A stretch of 22,110 nt of DNA from positions 1 through 22,110 of the IMG/VR virus record IMGVR_UViG_3300034073_002715. The stretch is one strand, 5' to 3'. Source of the stretch: a virus. The notes beneath the pieces are model-generated. The model saw only the letters and a list, made by a program, of their open reading frames with translations. It was not told the origin of the DNA and made no database searches. The stretch's first letter is position 1. Every line of letters starts with the position of its first letter. This document shows positions 6,833 through 22,110 of the stretch, in pieces. The translations under genes and the position numbers were made by a program.

Positions 6833-8622
6833 GTTTTCAGGTCAATGAGACCAACTCGAAGGTGACCGTTGACGAAACCGTCAGCACCCTTGTGGTGGAG
6901 GACAAGGCCGCCCGTGTGACGATCACCGGTGACGGAACGACGGTGGAGATCACCGCACCTGGTCCGCAGGGTCCGGTCGGGCCGGGGTTCCCCGAAGGTG
7001 GCGTTGCCGGTCAGCTGATCGTCAAGGATTCCTCGGCTGACTATGACGTGTCGTGGACTGATGAGATCACCCTGGACAAGTTGACGTTCGATGTCGCGGC
7101 TGAGGAGGATTTGACCGCTCCGGGTGAGATTGCGTGGGACGCCGAGTTCGGCACCTTCGATGCGGTCCTGTCCAACGGTGACGATCTCGTCACGATGCAC
7201 ATCGGGCAGGACATCTACTACCGGGTGAAGAACGCCTCCGGGGTGACGTTGACGAAGGGGACGTTGGTGATGGCGACGACCCCGTCGGGCAGCTCCGGCA
7301 AGATCAGTGTCACGAAGGCTGTCGCGGACGGGTCGGTGCCGTCGCAATACATCATGGGTGTGGTTGCTGAGGAGATTGAGGCGGACGCTGAGGGGTTCGT
7401 GGTGCATTTCGGTCGGGTGCGCCGCTTGGACACCCAGACCCCGGATTGGAACCCTGGGGATATTTTGTGGGCTGATCCGGCGGTTCCGGGTGGGTTGACG
7501 AAGGTGGAGCCGGCCGCTCCGAACTCGCGGACGATCGTGGCGATTGTGTTGTCGCGGAACACGGCGAACGGGGCGATCTTTGTCCGGCCCACCTATGGGT
7601 CGGATTTGGGTGATGATGAGCGGGTTCGGTTGACGAACCTGACGAACGGTCAGGCGTTGATTTACAACGGCACCGTCGGTGTGTTTGAGAACGTGTCGCT
7701 GTCCGTATCGAATGTGTCTGGTGTGGTGCCAACTACACGTCAGGTGGCGTCGGGGACTGGGTTGGCTGGTGGCGGGGATCTGTCTACGGATCGCACGTTG
7801 TCGGTGTTGTATGGGACGACGGCGGGCACGGCGGCGCAGGGTGATGATGTGCGGTTGTCGGATGCGCGGACCCCGTTGGCGCACGCGACCACGCACCACA
7901 CGGGTGGCAGTGATCCGTTGACGGCGACGAACATCGGCGCGGCGGAGGCAACAACGCAGATGATCGCGGGGACGGGGTTGTCGGGTGGTGGGACGCTCGA
8001 GGCCAACCGCACGTTCACGGTGCTGTACGGGACGACGGCTGGGACGGCAGCTCAAGGTGACGACGCCCGCCTCAGTGATGCGAGGACGCCGACGGCGCAC
8101 GCCTCAACCCATTTCACCGGCGGGTCCGATCCGATCAACGCCACGAACATCGGTGCGGTGCCCGAGGGACGCCAGGTCATTGCCGGCACCGGCCTGGCCG
8201 GTGGTGGTGACCTGACAGCTGATCGGACCTTGTCGGTGTTGTACGGCACCACGTCGGGGACGGCTGCGGCGGGTGACGACGCTCGGTTGTCGGATGCGAG
8301 GACGCCGACGGCGCATGCCTCCACACATTTCACCGGCGGATCAGATGCGCTGACCGCGACGAACATTGGGGCGGCGGAAGCGTCAATTGAGATCATTGCC
8401 GGCACCGGCCTGACCGGCGGCGGCACCCTCGAAGCTGACCGCACCCTCACCGTCCTCTACGGCACCACCACGGGCACCGCCGCCTCCGGAGATCGAGGGC
8501 TGATCACCGGCGGCACCACCGGCCAGGTGCTTCGCAAGACCTCGGGGACTGACTATGCGGTTGAGTGGGGGTCGGTGTGGGAGGACGATCAAGTAATCTT
8601 GGCCGGTCAGGTTTTCGGGTAG
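6829..8622 (+). CDS. tail fibre protein with four 72-residue repeats
   Basis: 597 residues from GTG 6829. The N-terminus is followed by a short collagen-like PGPQGPVGPG segment, then a mixed beta region (WTDEITLDKLTFD, a LamG-unlike segment with VGPTYGSD-type strands). The C-terminal half is four copies of a 72-residue unit with AGTGL.GGG.L.ADRTL, VLYGTT.GTAA.GDDARLSD and THFTGGSD...ATNIGAA. These motifs are common in trimeric phage fibres. The last copy is truncated and leads to GQVLRKTSGTDYAVEWGSV, a frequent fibre C-terminal segment. It likely forms a long trimeric shaft at the tail tip. The GTG start is supported by the four-base stop/start overlap. Confidence 0.85.
   Translation: MSFQVNETNSKVTVDETVSTLVVEDKAARVTITGDGTTVEITAPGPQGPVGPGFPEGGVAGQLIVKDSSADYDVSWTDEITLDKLTFDVAAEEDLTAPGEIAWDAEFGTFDAVLSNGDDLVTMHIGQDIYYRVKNASGVTLTKGTLVMATTPSGSSGKISVTKAVADGSVPSQYIMGVVAEEIEADAEGFVVHFGRVRRLDTQTPDWNPGDILWADPAVPGGLTKVEPAAPNSRTIVAIVLSRNTANGAIFVRPTYGSDLGDDERVRLTNLTNGQALIYNGTVGVFENVSLSVSNVSGVVPTTRQVASGTGLAGGGDLSTDRTLSVLYGTTAGTAAQGDDVRLSDARTPLAHATTHHTGGSDPLTATNIGAAEATTQMIAGTGLSGGGTLEANRTFTVLYGTTAGTAAQGDDARLSDARTPTAHASTHFTGGSDPINATNIGAVPEGRQVIAGTGLAGGGDLTADRTLSVLYGTTSGTAAAGDDARLSDARTPTAHASTHFTGGSDALTATNIGAAEASIEIIAGTGLTGGGTLEADRTLTVLYGTTTGTAASGDRGLITGGTTGQVLRKTSGTDYAVEWGSVWEDDQVILAGQVFG
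7741..8493 (+). repeat. four tandem 216-bp repeats inside the tail fibre gene
   Basis: Units start at 7741, 7957, 8173 and 8389, exactly 216 bp (72 codons) apart; the last stops near 8493. Protein motifs are conserved but codons are not: early copies use TTG, GGG and GCG, the last uses CTG/CTC, GGC and ACC. Confidence 0.88.
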
Positions 8623-15003: not shown

Positions 15004-16548
15004 ATGACCGCCCAATTCCTACAGCAAGACTTCACCCGCGACCGGTGGGGCCGACCCCTCATCACCCCCGCTGGTGGTGGGAAACCCGTCGCCTACACCC
15101 GGATCTCCGGATACGGGTCGGTGCTGGAGAACCAGTTCGGCCTCACCAAGTGGAAGCTCCGCACCCTCCTGAAAGGGTCGTTGGATCGTCCCGATCTGCG
15201 CGCCGCCGCCGAATCCAAACTTGGTGACGACCGGCACCTCGACGACATCGTCGACCGCATGATGGAACACGCCGGCGCATCATCGGCAGCGAACATCGGC
15301 ACCGCCATCCACGAAGTGTTGGCTCAACTCGACTCCGGGCAGATCACCCTCCACGAAATGCCGGACAACTTCCGCCCCTTCGGCCAAGGGTGGCAAACCG
15401 CCCTGACCACCCTTGGCTACGAAGTCGACCCCGACCTGATCGAACTGCACCTCGTCAACGACGAATTCCAAGCAGCCGGATCAGGTGACAACTTCGTCCG
15501 CCGCATCTCCGACGGCAAACTGGTCGCCCTGGACAAGAAAACCGGCAAACAAATCCACACCCGCCCACTCGCCTACATGGTGCAGCTGTACCTGTACGCC
15601 ACAGCCGTCCGCTACAACGTCGCAACCGGGGAACGCTCCCAGATCGGCGACGTCGACACTTCGGAGGCGTTGATTGCCCACATCCCCGCCACCGGCGACG
15701 GTAGGTGCGACATCTACCGGGTCGACCTCACCGCTGTGCGCCCCATCGTCGAGCTCGCCCGTGCCGTGAAGGCGGTGGAGAAGGGTGCGCCTGCGGTGGT
15801 GAAACTGGACGCCCAGATGGACCCGATCGACGAGATCGCATCCGACGCCCGCATCGAATGGGTCAAAGACCGCCTCAAGGTGTGCCTCACCTTCAGCGAC
15901 GCCACCGCCACCATGACGAAGCACCTGTGGCCCGAAGGTGTCCCCGGCTTCAAAGGCAACCACCAGCACACCCACCGGGAGCTGAACCTGATCCTCGTCG
16001 CGCTCGAGTCAGTAGAACGGGAACACAATCTCCCGTTCGGTCTCCCCGACCCCGACTACGCCGCCACCCACCAGCACGCAATCAAACTGGTCAAAGGTGC
16101 GTTCCCATCCGCCCAACCCGTCGACACAACCAAACTGGTTCCCGACGAGGTCGTGTCGGATGTGATGGAGATCCACCGCAACCTGACCCCCGCCGCCACC
16201 AACATCGTCACCATGGTCCTCGCGGAGGCGAACGGTGCCGGCTACGGCCTGTCGCTCAAGAAGCGTGCCAGTGAACAGCGGGTCGCCGCGATCCTCGCTC
16301 TGTTCGCCTGCGCCCAATTCGAGGACGCCACCATCATCCGCCCCATCATCACCCACGCCCTCCCCGACCACGACGCCGCCGCGTCGCTCGGCAAGCTCTT
16401 CGGCACATTCACCATCACGGAGTCTCGTGCCGTAGAAAACACCGCCAACGCCTTCGAGGCCGGCCTTCTCCACCTGGAGGAAACCAAAACCGGCACGATC
16501 ACGCTGGTGGCAAACAACCCAACCAACAACAACCAGGAGAACCAATGA
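15004..16548 (+). CDS. RecB/Cas4-like PD-(D/E)xK nuclease
   Basis: 514 residues. The N-terminal half carries the order of motifs in RecB/Cas4 nucleases: His103 in GTAIHEVL, Asp162 in AAGSGDNF, DKKTGK at 177-182 (D-x-K) and QLYLYA at 194-199. The helical end (residues 300-514) contains a long region (VVSDVMEIHRNLTPAATNIV, ASEQRVAAILALFACAQFED) without clear motif. Actinophages commonly carry such a two-part protein near the SSB-like gene, as expected for end processing in recombination. Four-base overlap (ATGA) couples it to the SSB-like gene. Four cysteines of iron-sulphur Cas4 type are not visible. A helicase domain is also absent. Confidence 0.82.
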   Translation: MTAQFLQQDFTRDRWGRPLITPAGGGKPVAYTRISGYGSVLENQFGLTKWKLRTLLKGSLDRPDLRAAAESKLGDDRHLDDIVDRMMEHAGASSAANIGTAIHEVLAQLDSGQITLHEMPDNFRPFGQGWQTALTTLGYEVDPDLIELHLVNDEFQAAGSGDNFVRRISDGKLVALDKKTGKQIHTRPLAYMVQLYLYATAVRYNVATGERSQIGDVDTSEALIAHIPATGDGRCDIYRVDLTAVRPIVELARAVKAVEKGAPAVVKLDAQMDPIDEIASDARIEWVKDRLKVCLTFSDATATMTKHLWPEGVPGFKGNHQHTHRELNLILVALESVEREHNLPFGLPDPDYAATHQHAIKLVKGAFPSAQPVDTTKLVPDEVVSDVMEIHRNLTPAATNIVTMVLAEANGAGYGLSLKKRASEQRVAAILALFACAQFEDATIIRPIITHALPDHDAAASLGKLFGTFTITESRAVENTANAFEAGLLHLEETKTGTITLVANNPTNNNQENQ

Positions 16549-16946
16549 GCGACGAATTCCTCGCCGGAGGCGGAGCCTCCAACCCGGCGATCAAATTCAC
16601 CAACCCCGGCGACACCGCCAAAGGGGTCATCACCCAAGTGAAGCGGCTCGAGGACCGCGACCCGAACGGCACCGTCAAGACGTGGCCCGACGGGAAGCCG
16701 AAGCACGTGTTCGTGTTCACCCTCGAAACCGACAACGGCACCGAAGCCCTCTGGGTGCGCGGCAACATGGTGAAGGCGATCCGTGAGGCCGCCACCGCCG
16801 CCGGGGTCACCACCATGGAAGGCGCAACCGTCGCGGTTCAGTTCACCGGCCTCGGCGAACCGACCTCGAAGGGGTACGCACCGCCGAAGCTGTTCAAGGC
16901 CCAGGTGAAGCCGGCGTCCACGATCACCACCGACGACCTCCTGTAG
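16545..16946 (+). CDS. single-stranded-DNA-binding-like protein
   Basis: 133 residues, ATG overlapping the nuclease stop. Beta strands of an OB-like fold are suggested (DTAKGVITQVKRLEDRD, HVFVFTLETDNGTEALWV, GATVAVQFTGLGEP) and the end is TITTDDLL, an acidic tip like the C-terminal peptide by which SSB proteins recruit partners. The pattern is common for actinophage proteins placed beside a RecB-like nuclease. It lacks the classical SSB consensus, so the assignment rests on fold hints and neighbours. A 144-base non-coding gap follows, the largest in the window. Confidence 0.7.
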   Translation: MSDEFLAGGGASNPAIKFTNPGDTAKGVITQVKRLEDRDPNGTVKTWPDGKPKHVFVFTLETDNGTEALWVRGNMVKAIREAATAAGVTTMEGATVAVQFTGLGEPTSKGYAPPKLFKAQVKPASTITTDDLL

Positions 16947-17090
16947 GTCACCCCAAGTCGCACACCCTTTCCCGCCTTTCTCCTTTCGGGGTGGGGAGGG
17001 GCAGCGACCCCTCCAGGCAACAAGATGTCCGCGCCAACCACGCTGTCCAGGTAGGGCGCGACCCGGTGCAAGTCCGGGTGGAGGGGCCAC
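16947..17090 (+). ncRNA. candidate structured cis-regulatory RNA, tRNA-like three-way junction
   Basis: This 144-base gap begins with a pyrimidine-rich stretch (to ~16986). GGAGGGG at 16995-17001 can pair with CCCCTCC at 17008-17014 (loop CAGCGA). The same CCCCTCC can instead pair with a second GGAGGGG at 17080-17086 (A17015-T17079 can extend the stem), which is the Shine-Dalgarno of the ORF at 17091. In the second fold two further hairpins fit with no gap between them: CGCGCC/GGCGCG at 17030-17060, extended by ACC/GGT, and ACCCGG/CCGGGT at 17061-17079 with a T-loop-like seven-base loop TGCAAGT. CCA follows at 17087-17089. There is no D-arm, so this is not a normal tRNA. Switching is inferred from complementarity. 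Confidence 0.55.
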
Positions 17091-17231
17091 ATGAAAACAC
17101 AAGACATAGCCAACGCCGTACACTTCTTGCGTCGCACCGTGGCCTACGGTGCCGACCAAGACATCCTCATCGCCACCATCGAAGCCTTAGAAAAGGAACT
17201 TGATCGGCGGCGGGAAAGGTCCAAGAAATGA
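17091..17231 (+). CDS. small protein downstream of the structured RNA
   Basis: 46 residues from ATG 17091 to TGA 17229-17231, with GGAGGGG four bases upstream of the start. It opens MKTQDIANAVHFLRRTVAYG, followed by a helix (QDILIATIEALEKELDRRRE) and a basic end. Its start codon sits three bases after the predicted outer stem of the RNA element. Its stop overlaps the next ATG (ATGA). No family is recognised. Because the whole downstream run of coupled genes begins here, occlusion of this ribosome site could affect several products. Confidence 0.62.
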   Translation: MKTQDIANAVHFLRRTVAYGADQDILIATIEALEKELDRRRERSKK

Positions 17232-17416
17232 ACACCAACGAAGAACTGATGATGTTGAGGGAACGCCTCGAAGAACAAGCCATGACCCTCGACGTCCTCC
17301 GGGAACGACTCACCGAGGAAAAAGACCGCGCCGACCGCGCAGAACAACTCCTCGTCGAGAAACGAGCCGAAATCCTCCGCCTCGAAGCATTGCAGCAAAT
17401 CCACTACAGCGACTGA
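17228..17416 (+). CDS. small coiled-coil protein
   Basis: 62 residues, ATG overlapping the previous stop. From residue 4 to about 55 the sequence is a continuous heptad-like helix (LMMLRERLEEQAMTLDVLRE, then LTEEKDRADRAEQLLVEKR). It is rich in Glu, Arg and Leu, as a coiled coil would be. There are no cysteines or membrane segment. It might form dimers and act as an adaptor or phage-encoded inhibitor, but nothing specific can be stated. Confidence 0.62.
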   Translation: MNTNEELMMLRERLEEQAMTLDVLRERLTEEKDRADRAEQLLVEKRAEILRLEALQQIHYSD

Positions 17417-17634: not shown

Positions 17635-17957
17635 TGGACTTCTCATGGGTGTTGGCTACCTTCGGAATCACCGGCATGGTGATCGCCGGCAGGAAAATCT
17701 GGTGGGGATGGCTCGTCAACCTCGCCAACGAAATCCTGTGGATCATCTTCGCCGTCACAACCCGCCAGTACGGGTTCATCCTCATGGCAATCGGCTACGG
17801 AGCCGTCTATGCCAACAACATGAGAACGTGGAGAAGTGATGTCGATCCAGCAGATCAACGAGGTGATGGCCATCACCGAAGAAATGTCCCCATGCTGCGG
17901 GTCGCTTGCGTTGCAGATGTACCACCACCAACTCGAACTGATCGACCAGTACCGTGA
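17634..17957 (+). CDS. PnuC/PQ-loop-like half-size membrane protein, long overlap with next gene
   Basis: 107 residues from GTG 17634. Residues 1-65 form about three membrane helices (FSWVLATFGITGMVIAG, GWLVNLANEILWIIFAVTT, YGFILMAIGYGAVYANN), resembling half of a PnuC-type or semiSWEET-like carrier for nicotinamide riboside or small metabolites. Residues after 67 (SDVDPADQRGDGHHRRN onward) are read in a different frame from the next gene and look like out-of-frame sequence. The natural end was probably near RTW; one base of shift would give a TGA at the gene junction. Either a real 119-base overlap or a mutated stop must be assumed. Substrate unknown. Confidence 0.5.
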   Translation: MDFSWVLATFGITGMVIAGRKIWWGWLVNLANEILWIIFAVTTRQYGFILMAIGYGAVYANNMRTWRSDVDPADQRGDGHHRRNVPMLRVACVADVPPPTRTDRPVP

Positions 17958-20589: not shown

Positions 20590-22110
20590 CCATGCCTGAA
20601 CCCGTCGCACCCACCAACCACCTCGACGCAGCCCTCCAACTCGCCAACTGCAACCTCCGCGTCCTCCCGATCAAACCCGGCGCGAAACACCCCGGCATCC
20701 CCGACTGGCCCAACAAAGCCACCACCAACCCCGACATCATCCACCGCTGGTACACCCAGCTGTACCGCAACCACGGAATCGGCATCGCCACCGGCAACGG
20801 GATCATCGTCCTCGACATCGACACCCACGGCGCAGACGGCTACACCACCCTCAACCAACTCACCACCAAACACGGCCCGCTGCCTGACACCGTCACCTGC
20901 AACACCGGCTCCGGCGGACAACACATCTACCTCCGCACCAACCTCCAAATCCGCAACAACGCCGGCACCAAACTCGGCCCCGGCATCGACCTCCGCGGCG
21001 ACGGCGGACAAGTCCTCGCCCCACCCACCCTCCACCCCACCACACACCGCCCCTACACCTGGGCCACCGGACGCGCACCCTGGCAACACCACATCGCCCC
21101 CGCACCCCACTGGCTCGAAACCCTCCTCAACCCCCCACCACCCGTCGCCACCTACCCCGCACCACCCCCCACCCGCGACCCCTTCCTCGCACCCACCGAC
21201 TCACCCGCCGACCGATACAACACCGAAACCACCTGGGCGCAGCTCCTCACCGCCGACGGCTGGACCGCCACCCACACCGACCGCGACGGCGTCACCCACT
21301 GGACCCGACCCGGCAAACACCCCAACGAAGGCACCAGCGCAACCACCGGCCACAACGGCAAAGACTTCCTCCACGTTTTCACCACCTCGATCCCGTGGCT
21401 CCCCGAAGGGAACTACACCCGGTTCGCCTACACCGCCCACCGCAACCACGGAGGCGACTACCGGGCACTCACAGCCTCTCTCCGCCTCCCAAACCTCACC
21501 CCCGCACCCACACCCCACATCCCCACCCAACCCCCCTCAGAAGCCCTCCAGACAGCGCAGGAACCCACCCCAGACGACCCCGACACCACCTCCACCTGGA
21601 CCCCCATCGACCTCACCCCCTACTTCACCGGCACCCACGAACCCCTCCAACCCACCATCCTCCAACGCACCGACGGAACCCACCTCCTCTACCCCGGACG
21701 ACTCAACATGATCTTCGGCGAATCCGCCTCCGGAAAAACATGGATCGCCCTCACCGCAGCCACCCAACAACTCAACACCGGCCACCACATCGCCTACATC
21801 GACCTCGAAGATCACCCCCAAACCATCACCGAACGCCTCACCGCACTCGGCACCAAACCCCACCAAGCCCACCAAATCCACTACATCCGCCCCGAAACCC
21901 GAAACCCCGACGAAGCCCACCACCACATCACCCAACTCATCCACACCCACAACCCAACCCTCCTCATCCTCGACAGCTACGGAGAAGCCCTCGCCCTCTT
22001 CGGCATCGACCAAAACGACGACAACGGCGTCGCCCACTTCACCCAAAACATCCTCCGCCCCTGGACCCGCCAAGGCCCCGCCATCCTCATCCTCGACCAC
22101 ATCCCCAAAA
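20586..22110 (+). CDS. Prim-Pol primase-polymerase with RecA-like ATPase domain (3' end beyond window)
   Basis: At least 508 residues from GTG 20586 (or ATG 20592), still open at the window end. The N-terminal archaeo-eukaryotic primase domain shows DID at 77-79 (metal ligands Asp77, Asp79), GSGGQH at 108-113 (His113) and GIDLRGDGGQVLAPPT from 133. A long Pro/Thr/His-rich linker (about 180-350) follows. The second domain has Walker A GESASGKT at 378-385 and Walker B LLILDS near 459-464, as in RepA-type replicative helicases. It would make primers and unwind DNA at the phage origin. Codons end almost always in C, so the + strand is extremely C-rich and G-poor here. Confidence 0.9.
   Translation, partial: MTMPEPVAPTNHLDAALQLANCNLRVLPIKPGAKHPGIPDWPNKATTNPDIIHRWYTQLYRNHGIGIATGNGIIVLDIDTHGADGYTTLNQLTTKHGPLPDTVTCNTGSGGQHIYLRTNLQIRNNAGTKLGPGIDLRGDGGQVLAPPTLHPTTHRPYTWATGRAPWQHHIAPAPHWLETLLNPPPPVATYPAPPPTRDPFLAPTDSPADRYNTETTWAQLLTADGWTATHTDRDGVTHWTRPGKHPNEGTSATTGHNGKDFLHVFTTSIPWLPEGNYTRFAYTAHRNHGGDYRALTASLRLPNLTPAPTPHIPTQPPSEALQTAQEPTPDDPDTTSTWTPIDLTPYFTGTHEPLQPTILQRTDGTHLLYPGRLNMIFGESASGKTWIALTAATQQLNTGHHIAYIDLEDHPQTITERLTALGTKPHQAHQIHYIRPETRNPDEAHHHITQLIHTHNPTLLILDSYGEALALFGIDQNDDNGVAHFTQNILRPWTRQGPAILILDHIPK

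Follow-up and report, generated by a model that had tools for sequence, protein, structure and literature searches.

The locus considered here raises the question of what occupies 144 nt between two genes of a viral array whose genes otherwise overlap. The window (the whole stretch of DNA analysed, 22,110 nucleotides) harbors a WhiB-like gene, which points to an actinobacterial host; the virus, which is uncultured, is probably one of actinobacteria. On the plus strand, where the gap and the genes on either side of it lie, an exonuclease gene (15004–16548; phrog_466, E 1.6e-51) is followed by a gene of phrog_1911 (16545–16946), considered SSB-like in the initial annotation and having relatives in Mycobacterium phages. 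Downstream of the gap, the ORF table gives an ORF of 46 aa (17091–17231), lacking any database match, whose stop is overlapped (ATGA) by an ORF of 62 aa (17228–17416) that is likely translationally coupled to it. According to the same table, the gap is the longest seen in the array, as the initial annotation had stated. Neither a Rho-independent terminator nor a sigma-70 promoter was found within it. Elsewhere in the window, a 216-nt repeat occurs three times in tandem inside a tail protein gene (7720–8451), and the right end (20590–22110) has long open frames on the minus strand only, with a translation rich in glycine and valine.

The initial annotation described in this gap two copies of GGAGGGG (16995–17001 and 17080–17086), a complementary CCCCTCC (17008–17014), two abutting hairpins (17030–17060, CGCGCC/GGCGCG, and 17061–17079, ACCCGG-TGCAAGT-CCGGGT), the second of which has a T-loop-like loop, and a CCA (17087–17089) close to the ATG at 17091. 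All these elements are present at exactly these positions. The outer stem had been drawn between 17008–17014 and 17080–17086; moved one base inward, it gives an exact tRNA geometry. The acceptor-like 5' strand CCCTCCA (17009–17015) then forms seven out of seven Watson–Crick pairs with 17079–17085, and its 3' strand TGGAGGG is followed by a discriminator (G17086) and the CCA (17079–17089 as a whole), as in a tRNA. The acceptor encloses a D-arm-like GGC-AACAAGAT-GTC (17016–17029; alternatively 4 bp, GGCA/TGTC), which was absent from the initial list, a middle arm at the place of the anticodon arm (17030–17060; 6 bp, 19-nt loop) and a T-arm, CCCGG-TGCAAGT-CCGGG (17062–17078), with the 5-bp stem, seven-residue loop, G53-C61 pair, C56 and A58 expected of a tRNA. 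Residue 55 of the T-loop is a G instead of a U, a feature shared by roughly a third of the sampled phage tRNAs. The D-arm-like loop has an A-G that fits G55-C56, but this motif is short and finds no support in a model whose T-arm is masked. The Shine-Dalgarno sequence GGAGG (17080–17084) lies within the acceptor-like stem, 6 nt before the ATG, and a single base (17090) separates the CCA from the start codon. The minimum-energy fold of 17008–17090 is a closed four-arm cloverleaf (−41.7 kcal/mol, z −3.0), equalled by none of 200 shuffles; in the full leader (16947–17093) its outer stem starts at 17009, matching the tRNA register.

How often such an arrangement arises by chance was assessed with a descriptor made up of a 5-bp T-stem, the T-loop consensus, an abutting 7-bp acceptor within 28–100 nt, N and CCA. 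It matched once in the window and never in 20 Mb of order-1 random sequence (seven times when the CCA was not required); since it was designed after the element had been seen, these figures are a guide rather than a strict p-value. A slightly looser version retrieved 241 matches from about 2 Mb of viral loci, 204 of which are tRNAs detected by ARAGORN; the remaining 37 are, by eye, tRNAs missed by this program, the window element excepted. In viral loci, the descriptor marks essentially only tRNAs.

Furthermore, 50 phage tRNAs sharing the T-loop type of the window element, which was itself left out, were used to build a covariance model (R1). This model aligned over its full length to 17009–17089 with 28.6 bits, a score inflated by the choice of the tRNAs according to their T-loop type; the runner-up in the window reached 8.2 bits. 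Because of this selection, viral loci sharing the identical CCGGTGCAAGTCCGG hairpin and having no tRNA represent a stricter yardstick. They mostly scored 12–15 bits, corresponding to the T-arm alone, and the top scores outside ordinary tRNAs were those of a permuted tmRNA in viral contig L086 (24.3) and of an odd element in L050 (22.6). The window element lies above those identical-T-arm loci, at the bottom edge of the true tRNAs. A second covariance model, with the T-arm masked (R2), did not rank it, so that the support beyond the T-arm comes from the abutting 7-bp stem and the CCA, and not from the D and middle arms. The element is an acceptor/T-half tRNA mimic ending in CCA, and its register, discriminator, CCA and T-arm, together with a profile score exceeding those of nearly all non-tRNA contexts with this T-arm, strengthen the tRNA-like reading put forward initially.

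It is not, on the other hand, a standard tRNA. Neither RF00005 nor ARAGORN recognizes it, the middle-arm region allows no 5-bp/7-nt anticodon hairpin and forms the 19-nt loop instead, and the U8-A9 linker is absent from its R1 alignment; for these reasons, it was filed as a tRNA-like structure. An attP copy of the 3' end of a host tRNA is unlikely as well, given that the 22-nt core had no match in the genomes of 84,980 species of bacteria and archaea, among which the true host is perhaps not included.

The next issue is whether the Shine-Dalgarno is accessible. In the folding ensemble of the native context it is about 90% closed, the anti-Shine-Dalgarno 17008–17014 pairing with 17080–17086 at about 90%, and opening the start at 17091 would cost 15.8 kcal/mol, the highest value among 40 starts of the window (an approximate gene list taken from the ORF table), several others of which also exceed 10 kcal/mol. 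The sequestration claimed in the initial annotation agrees with these predictions. The same annotation had proposed two mutually exclusive partners for CCCCTCC, and this part is not supported. In transcripts starting upstream, the GGAGGGG at 16995–17001 is embedded in a 14-bp hairpin (16965–17001; pair probability 0.98), with 16965–16978 paired to 16988–17001 in 98% of the ensemble, and at each of eleven transcript lengths it stays sequestered by 16965–16978. Its pairing with 17008–17014 is below 1% at every length and, when forced, is about 8 kcal/mol worse. For this alternative to dominate, the RNA would have to start at about 16990–16995, and for it to do so partly, at about 16980; a search for promoters of the sigma-70 type found none near 16980–16995. 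A switch between the two GGAGGGG partners was, therefore, rejected on the folding energies of the native transcript. With the alternative below 1% and the Shine-Dalgarno about 90% closed, the native state is predicted to be a locked Shine-Dalgarno rather than a balanced switch: the sequestration typical of translational riboswitches is found, whereas a populated fold freeing the Shine-Dalgarno is not. In other words, the tRNA-like half and the sequestration of the initial interpretation are supported, while its riboswitch-like choice of partner lacks energetic support in the native transcript.

No Rfam family reached its threshold for the element. The sub-threshold matches (sul1, FMN and twister-sister models) cover the T-loop hairpin only, and that to the sul1 RNA (RF03058) scored 15.2 bits versus a gathering score of 36.2. 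The resemblance to cobalamin riboswitches noticed initially is real in part: GGTGCAAGTCC is common to them, and the same hairpin is found in the one of locus L040, but the covariance search suggested at the same time, with RF00174 and the whole of Rfam, gave no match for the element, L040 serving as the positive control for RF00174.

As for the phylogenetic distribution of the gap, blastn did not retrieve homologues from the phage collection. The sole homologue is carried by a contig showing two differences in 11.5 kb and none in the gap (100% identical). Two relatives, whose SSB-like proteins are about 50% identical, have other genes directly downstream and no such gap. Searches with the exonuclease, the ORF at 17836 and the SSB-like gene returned only the identical contig or gap-less relatives; the relatives of ORF 17634 that were examined lack the element, and the 46-aa protein had no match among phages. 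No further tRNA was detected either in the window or in a 31.8-kb sister contig.

The same layout was also looked for behind real phage tRNAs. A scan for the same T-loop followed by GGAG and an ATG at the right spacing yielded 20 loci. In one of these, L234 (6162–6241), the CCA of a tRNA-type element touches the start codon (ATG) of a gene for 142 aa, whose Shine-Dalgarno (AGGAGAA) lies within the acceptor strand; phrog_12204 aligns to the protein from residue 1, indicating that this start is real. Among tRNAs with canonical T-loops, 11 more (Gln, Asp, Asn, Glu, Arg and others) have a Shine-Dalgarno in the acceptor strand, counting ORFs of at least 40 codons that start no more than 4 nt past the CCA. 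In total, 12 phage genes start 0–4 nt past a tRNA CCA with an acceptor-strand Shine-Dalgarno (loci with this layout: L234, L276, L266, L247, L260, L355, L337, L287, L315 and L245); as the search was pattern-driven and one start out of 12 is confirmed by homology, this count should not be read as a frequency, and not all of the short ORFs need be genes. These loci show that the acceptor strand of a tRNA serves phages as a ribosome site. A transcript of such genes that is folded and processed as a tRNA could presumably not act as a message via that Shine-Dalgarno. The element of the window is a non-decoding version of this layout.

In principle, these data can be accounted for in several ways. 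The explanation that we favor, with moderate confidence, is that the structure at 17009–17089 acts in cis by hiding the Shine-Dalgarno, keeping the small gene and the one coupled to it off or low by default. The element, in which a full acceptor/T-arm half with discriminator and CCA is combined with a D-like arm and, where a tRNA has its anticodon arm, with a long hairpin that does not decode, would be derived from, or be a mimic of, phage tRNAs whose T-loop is of the G55 type. The 3' strand of its acceptor stem would be the Shine-Dalgarno of the gene at 17091, with the CCA ending one base before the start codon, and, because this site would be hidden in the RNA folded as a tRNA mimic, neither gene would be translated efficiently in that state. 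Translation would require the opening of the fold or the action of a tRNA-processing or tRNA-binding factor, for example an RNase P cut before 17009 or a processing of the 3' end at the CCA, the message left being a leaderless C-AUG one in the latter case. That the structure forms in the cell, lowers translation and is acted upon by a factor is what we infer, its function being predicted from folding energies. RNase P contacts the RCCA end of its substrates (PMC12710915), which the G-C-C-A end of the element fits; phage C4 RNA (P1/P7), M3 RNA and mRNAs, including the T4 gene 32 mRNA, are documented substrates (PMC11143913). The element might, in the same way, undergo RNase P or CCA processing. 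That the leader is a purpose-built tRNA mimic, in which host tRNA-processing enzymes rather than a metabolite decide downstream translation (the folded form hiding the Shine-Dalgarno and the CCA-processed form being leaderless), appears unlikely to us.

The main rival is a pseudo-tRNA, that is, a decayed or captured tRNA gene whose acceptor strand would happen to act as a Shine-Dalgarno because of genome compactness and whose fold would have no regulatory role other than that of any tRNA beside a start. The missing 8–9 linker and the swollen anticodon loop do resemble decay, and genes directly behind true tRNAs with an acceptor Shine-Dalgarno are frequent in phages, where they can be mere compaction; however, the pairing is intact (acceptor 7/7, T-stem 5/5, middle stem 6/6), unlike that of a decaying gene, and the absence of any other tRNA from the window and the sister contig also speaks against it, making this scenario a serious but somewhat unlikely one. 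An ordinary GC-rich leader with a Shine-Dalgarno hairpin, its tRNA features being due to chance, would suit a GC-rich phage in which such hairpins are common and the opening of several other starts also costs more than 10 kcal/mol, but seems quite improbable in the light of the descriptor frequency, the fold z-score and an R1 score well above that of identical-T-arm contexts. Lastly, a translational switch sensing a ligand or protein, with the T-loop hairpin as a docking module and a coincidental CCA, is in line with the sequestered Shine-Dalgarno, the identical 15-nt hairpin of the L040 cobalamin riboswitch and the weak Rfam matches, but is quite improbable as well, considering the lack of any family at threshold, the scarce and costly alternative pairing in the native transcript and the relatives devoid of the gap.

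The T-loops surveyed in the course of this work led to some further observations. The 317 ARAGORN tRNAs of the fetched loci (e.g., L060, L089, L100, L111 and L188) fall into two covarying elbow types, U55 with a D-loop GG (163) and G55 with AG (86), the mixed kinds numbering 17 and 2 (Fisher p 4e-51, related tRNAs uncorrected); the choice of loci for GGTGCAAGTCC-like T-loops biases the proportions and, to a lesser degree, the pairing. The two types often occur on one contig, and G55-type tRNAs lack the bases for Psi55 and Gm18. We found no description of two elbow types in phage tRNAs in the literature searched; tRNA finders miss some phage tRNAs with G55 and A18. Two permuted tmRNAs (RF04321) in viral contigs, L072:3226–3410 (105 bits) and L086:5373–5562 (minus strand, 104 bits), have a T-loop of the G55 type, too. 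Moreover, the CCGGTGCAAGTCCGG hairpin recurs between phage genes without a match to tRNA, often just 5' of a start (L041/L107/L244, L014 and four sister contigs, L104 with two copies, L097/L117, L015/L045 and L088/L119), and those of these loci that were scanned had no Rfam match. An outer stem abuts the 3' side in 27 of 72 non-tRNA hairpin contexts versus 10 in a mirrored control; a k-mer search upstream of other non-tRNA T-arm contexts did not reveal a convincing common motif. The middle arm is also lengthened in two other tRNA-like elements, located in L050 (13371–13465, minus strand, 22.6 bits with R1) and L083 (8792–8873, minus strand, 20.4 bits).

If the fold of the window element works as proposed, a phage would have turned tRNA mimicry into a cis-acting translation switch. 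The layout with the Shine-Dalgarno embedded in the acceptor would then force each transcript to be either a tRNA or a message, and this either/or would represent a testable coupling of tRNA supply to gene expression. If the reading as a purpose-built mimic is true, the element would represent the non-decoding case of a broader layout of phages, with a single RNA stretch serving either as tRNA acceptor or as ribosome site.

A comparison with known systems helps to place the element. Like translational riboswitches (cobalamin, RF00174), it has an anti-Shine-Dalgarno stem beside a T-loop hairpin, but it lacks an aptamer core, a family match and a supported alternative fold. With tmRNA and the 3' tRNA-like structures of plant viruses it shares the top half of a tRNA ending in CCA and, with tmRNA, a long helix replacing the anticodon arm; it differs from these domains in lying in the 5' leader of a phage mRNA, in its size (about 81 nt), in having no tag ORF and in the start codon one base past the CCA. 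The RNAs processed by RNase P (P1/P7 C4, M3 and the T4 gene 32 mRNA; PMC11143913) are likewise tRNA-like folds in phage transcripts that are potentially cleavable at the 5' side, although cleavage of the window element is hypothetical and its Shine-Dalgarno is within the acceptor stem. Compared to tRNAs (RF00005), in particular those of phages in which the T-loop is TGCAA, it has the same 7-bp acceptor, R73-CCA and 5-bp/7-nt T-arm, and the A-G of its D-like loop may likewise stand opposite G55; it differs in the absence of a 7-nt anticodon loop and of the U8/A9 linker, in the negative RF00005 and ARAGORN results, and in its position in an mRNA leader with the Shine-Dalgarno in the acceptor. 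The phage genes located behind tRNAs (L234, L276, L266, L355 and others) have, as in the window, the Shine-Dalgarno in the acceptor 3' strand and the CCA 0–4 nt before the start; their tRNAs are decoding ones (perhaps with the exception of L234, whose anticodon arm is atypical), whereas in the window the anticodon arm is replaced.
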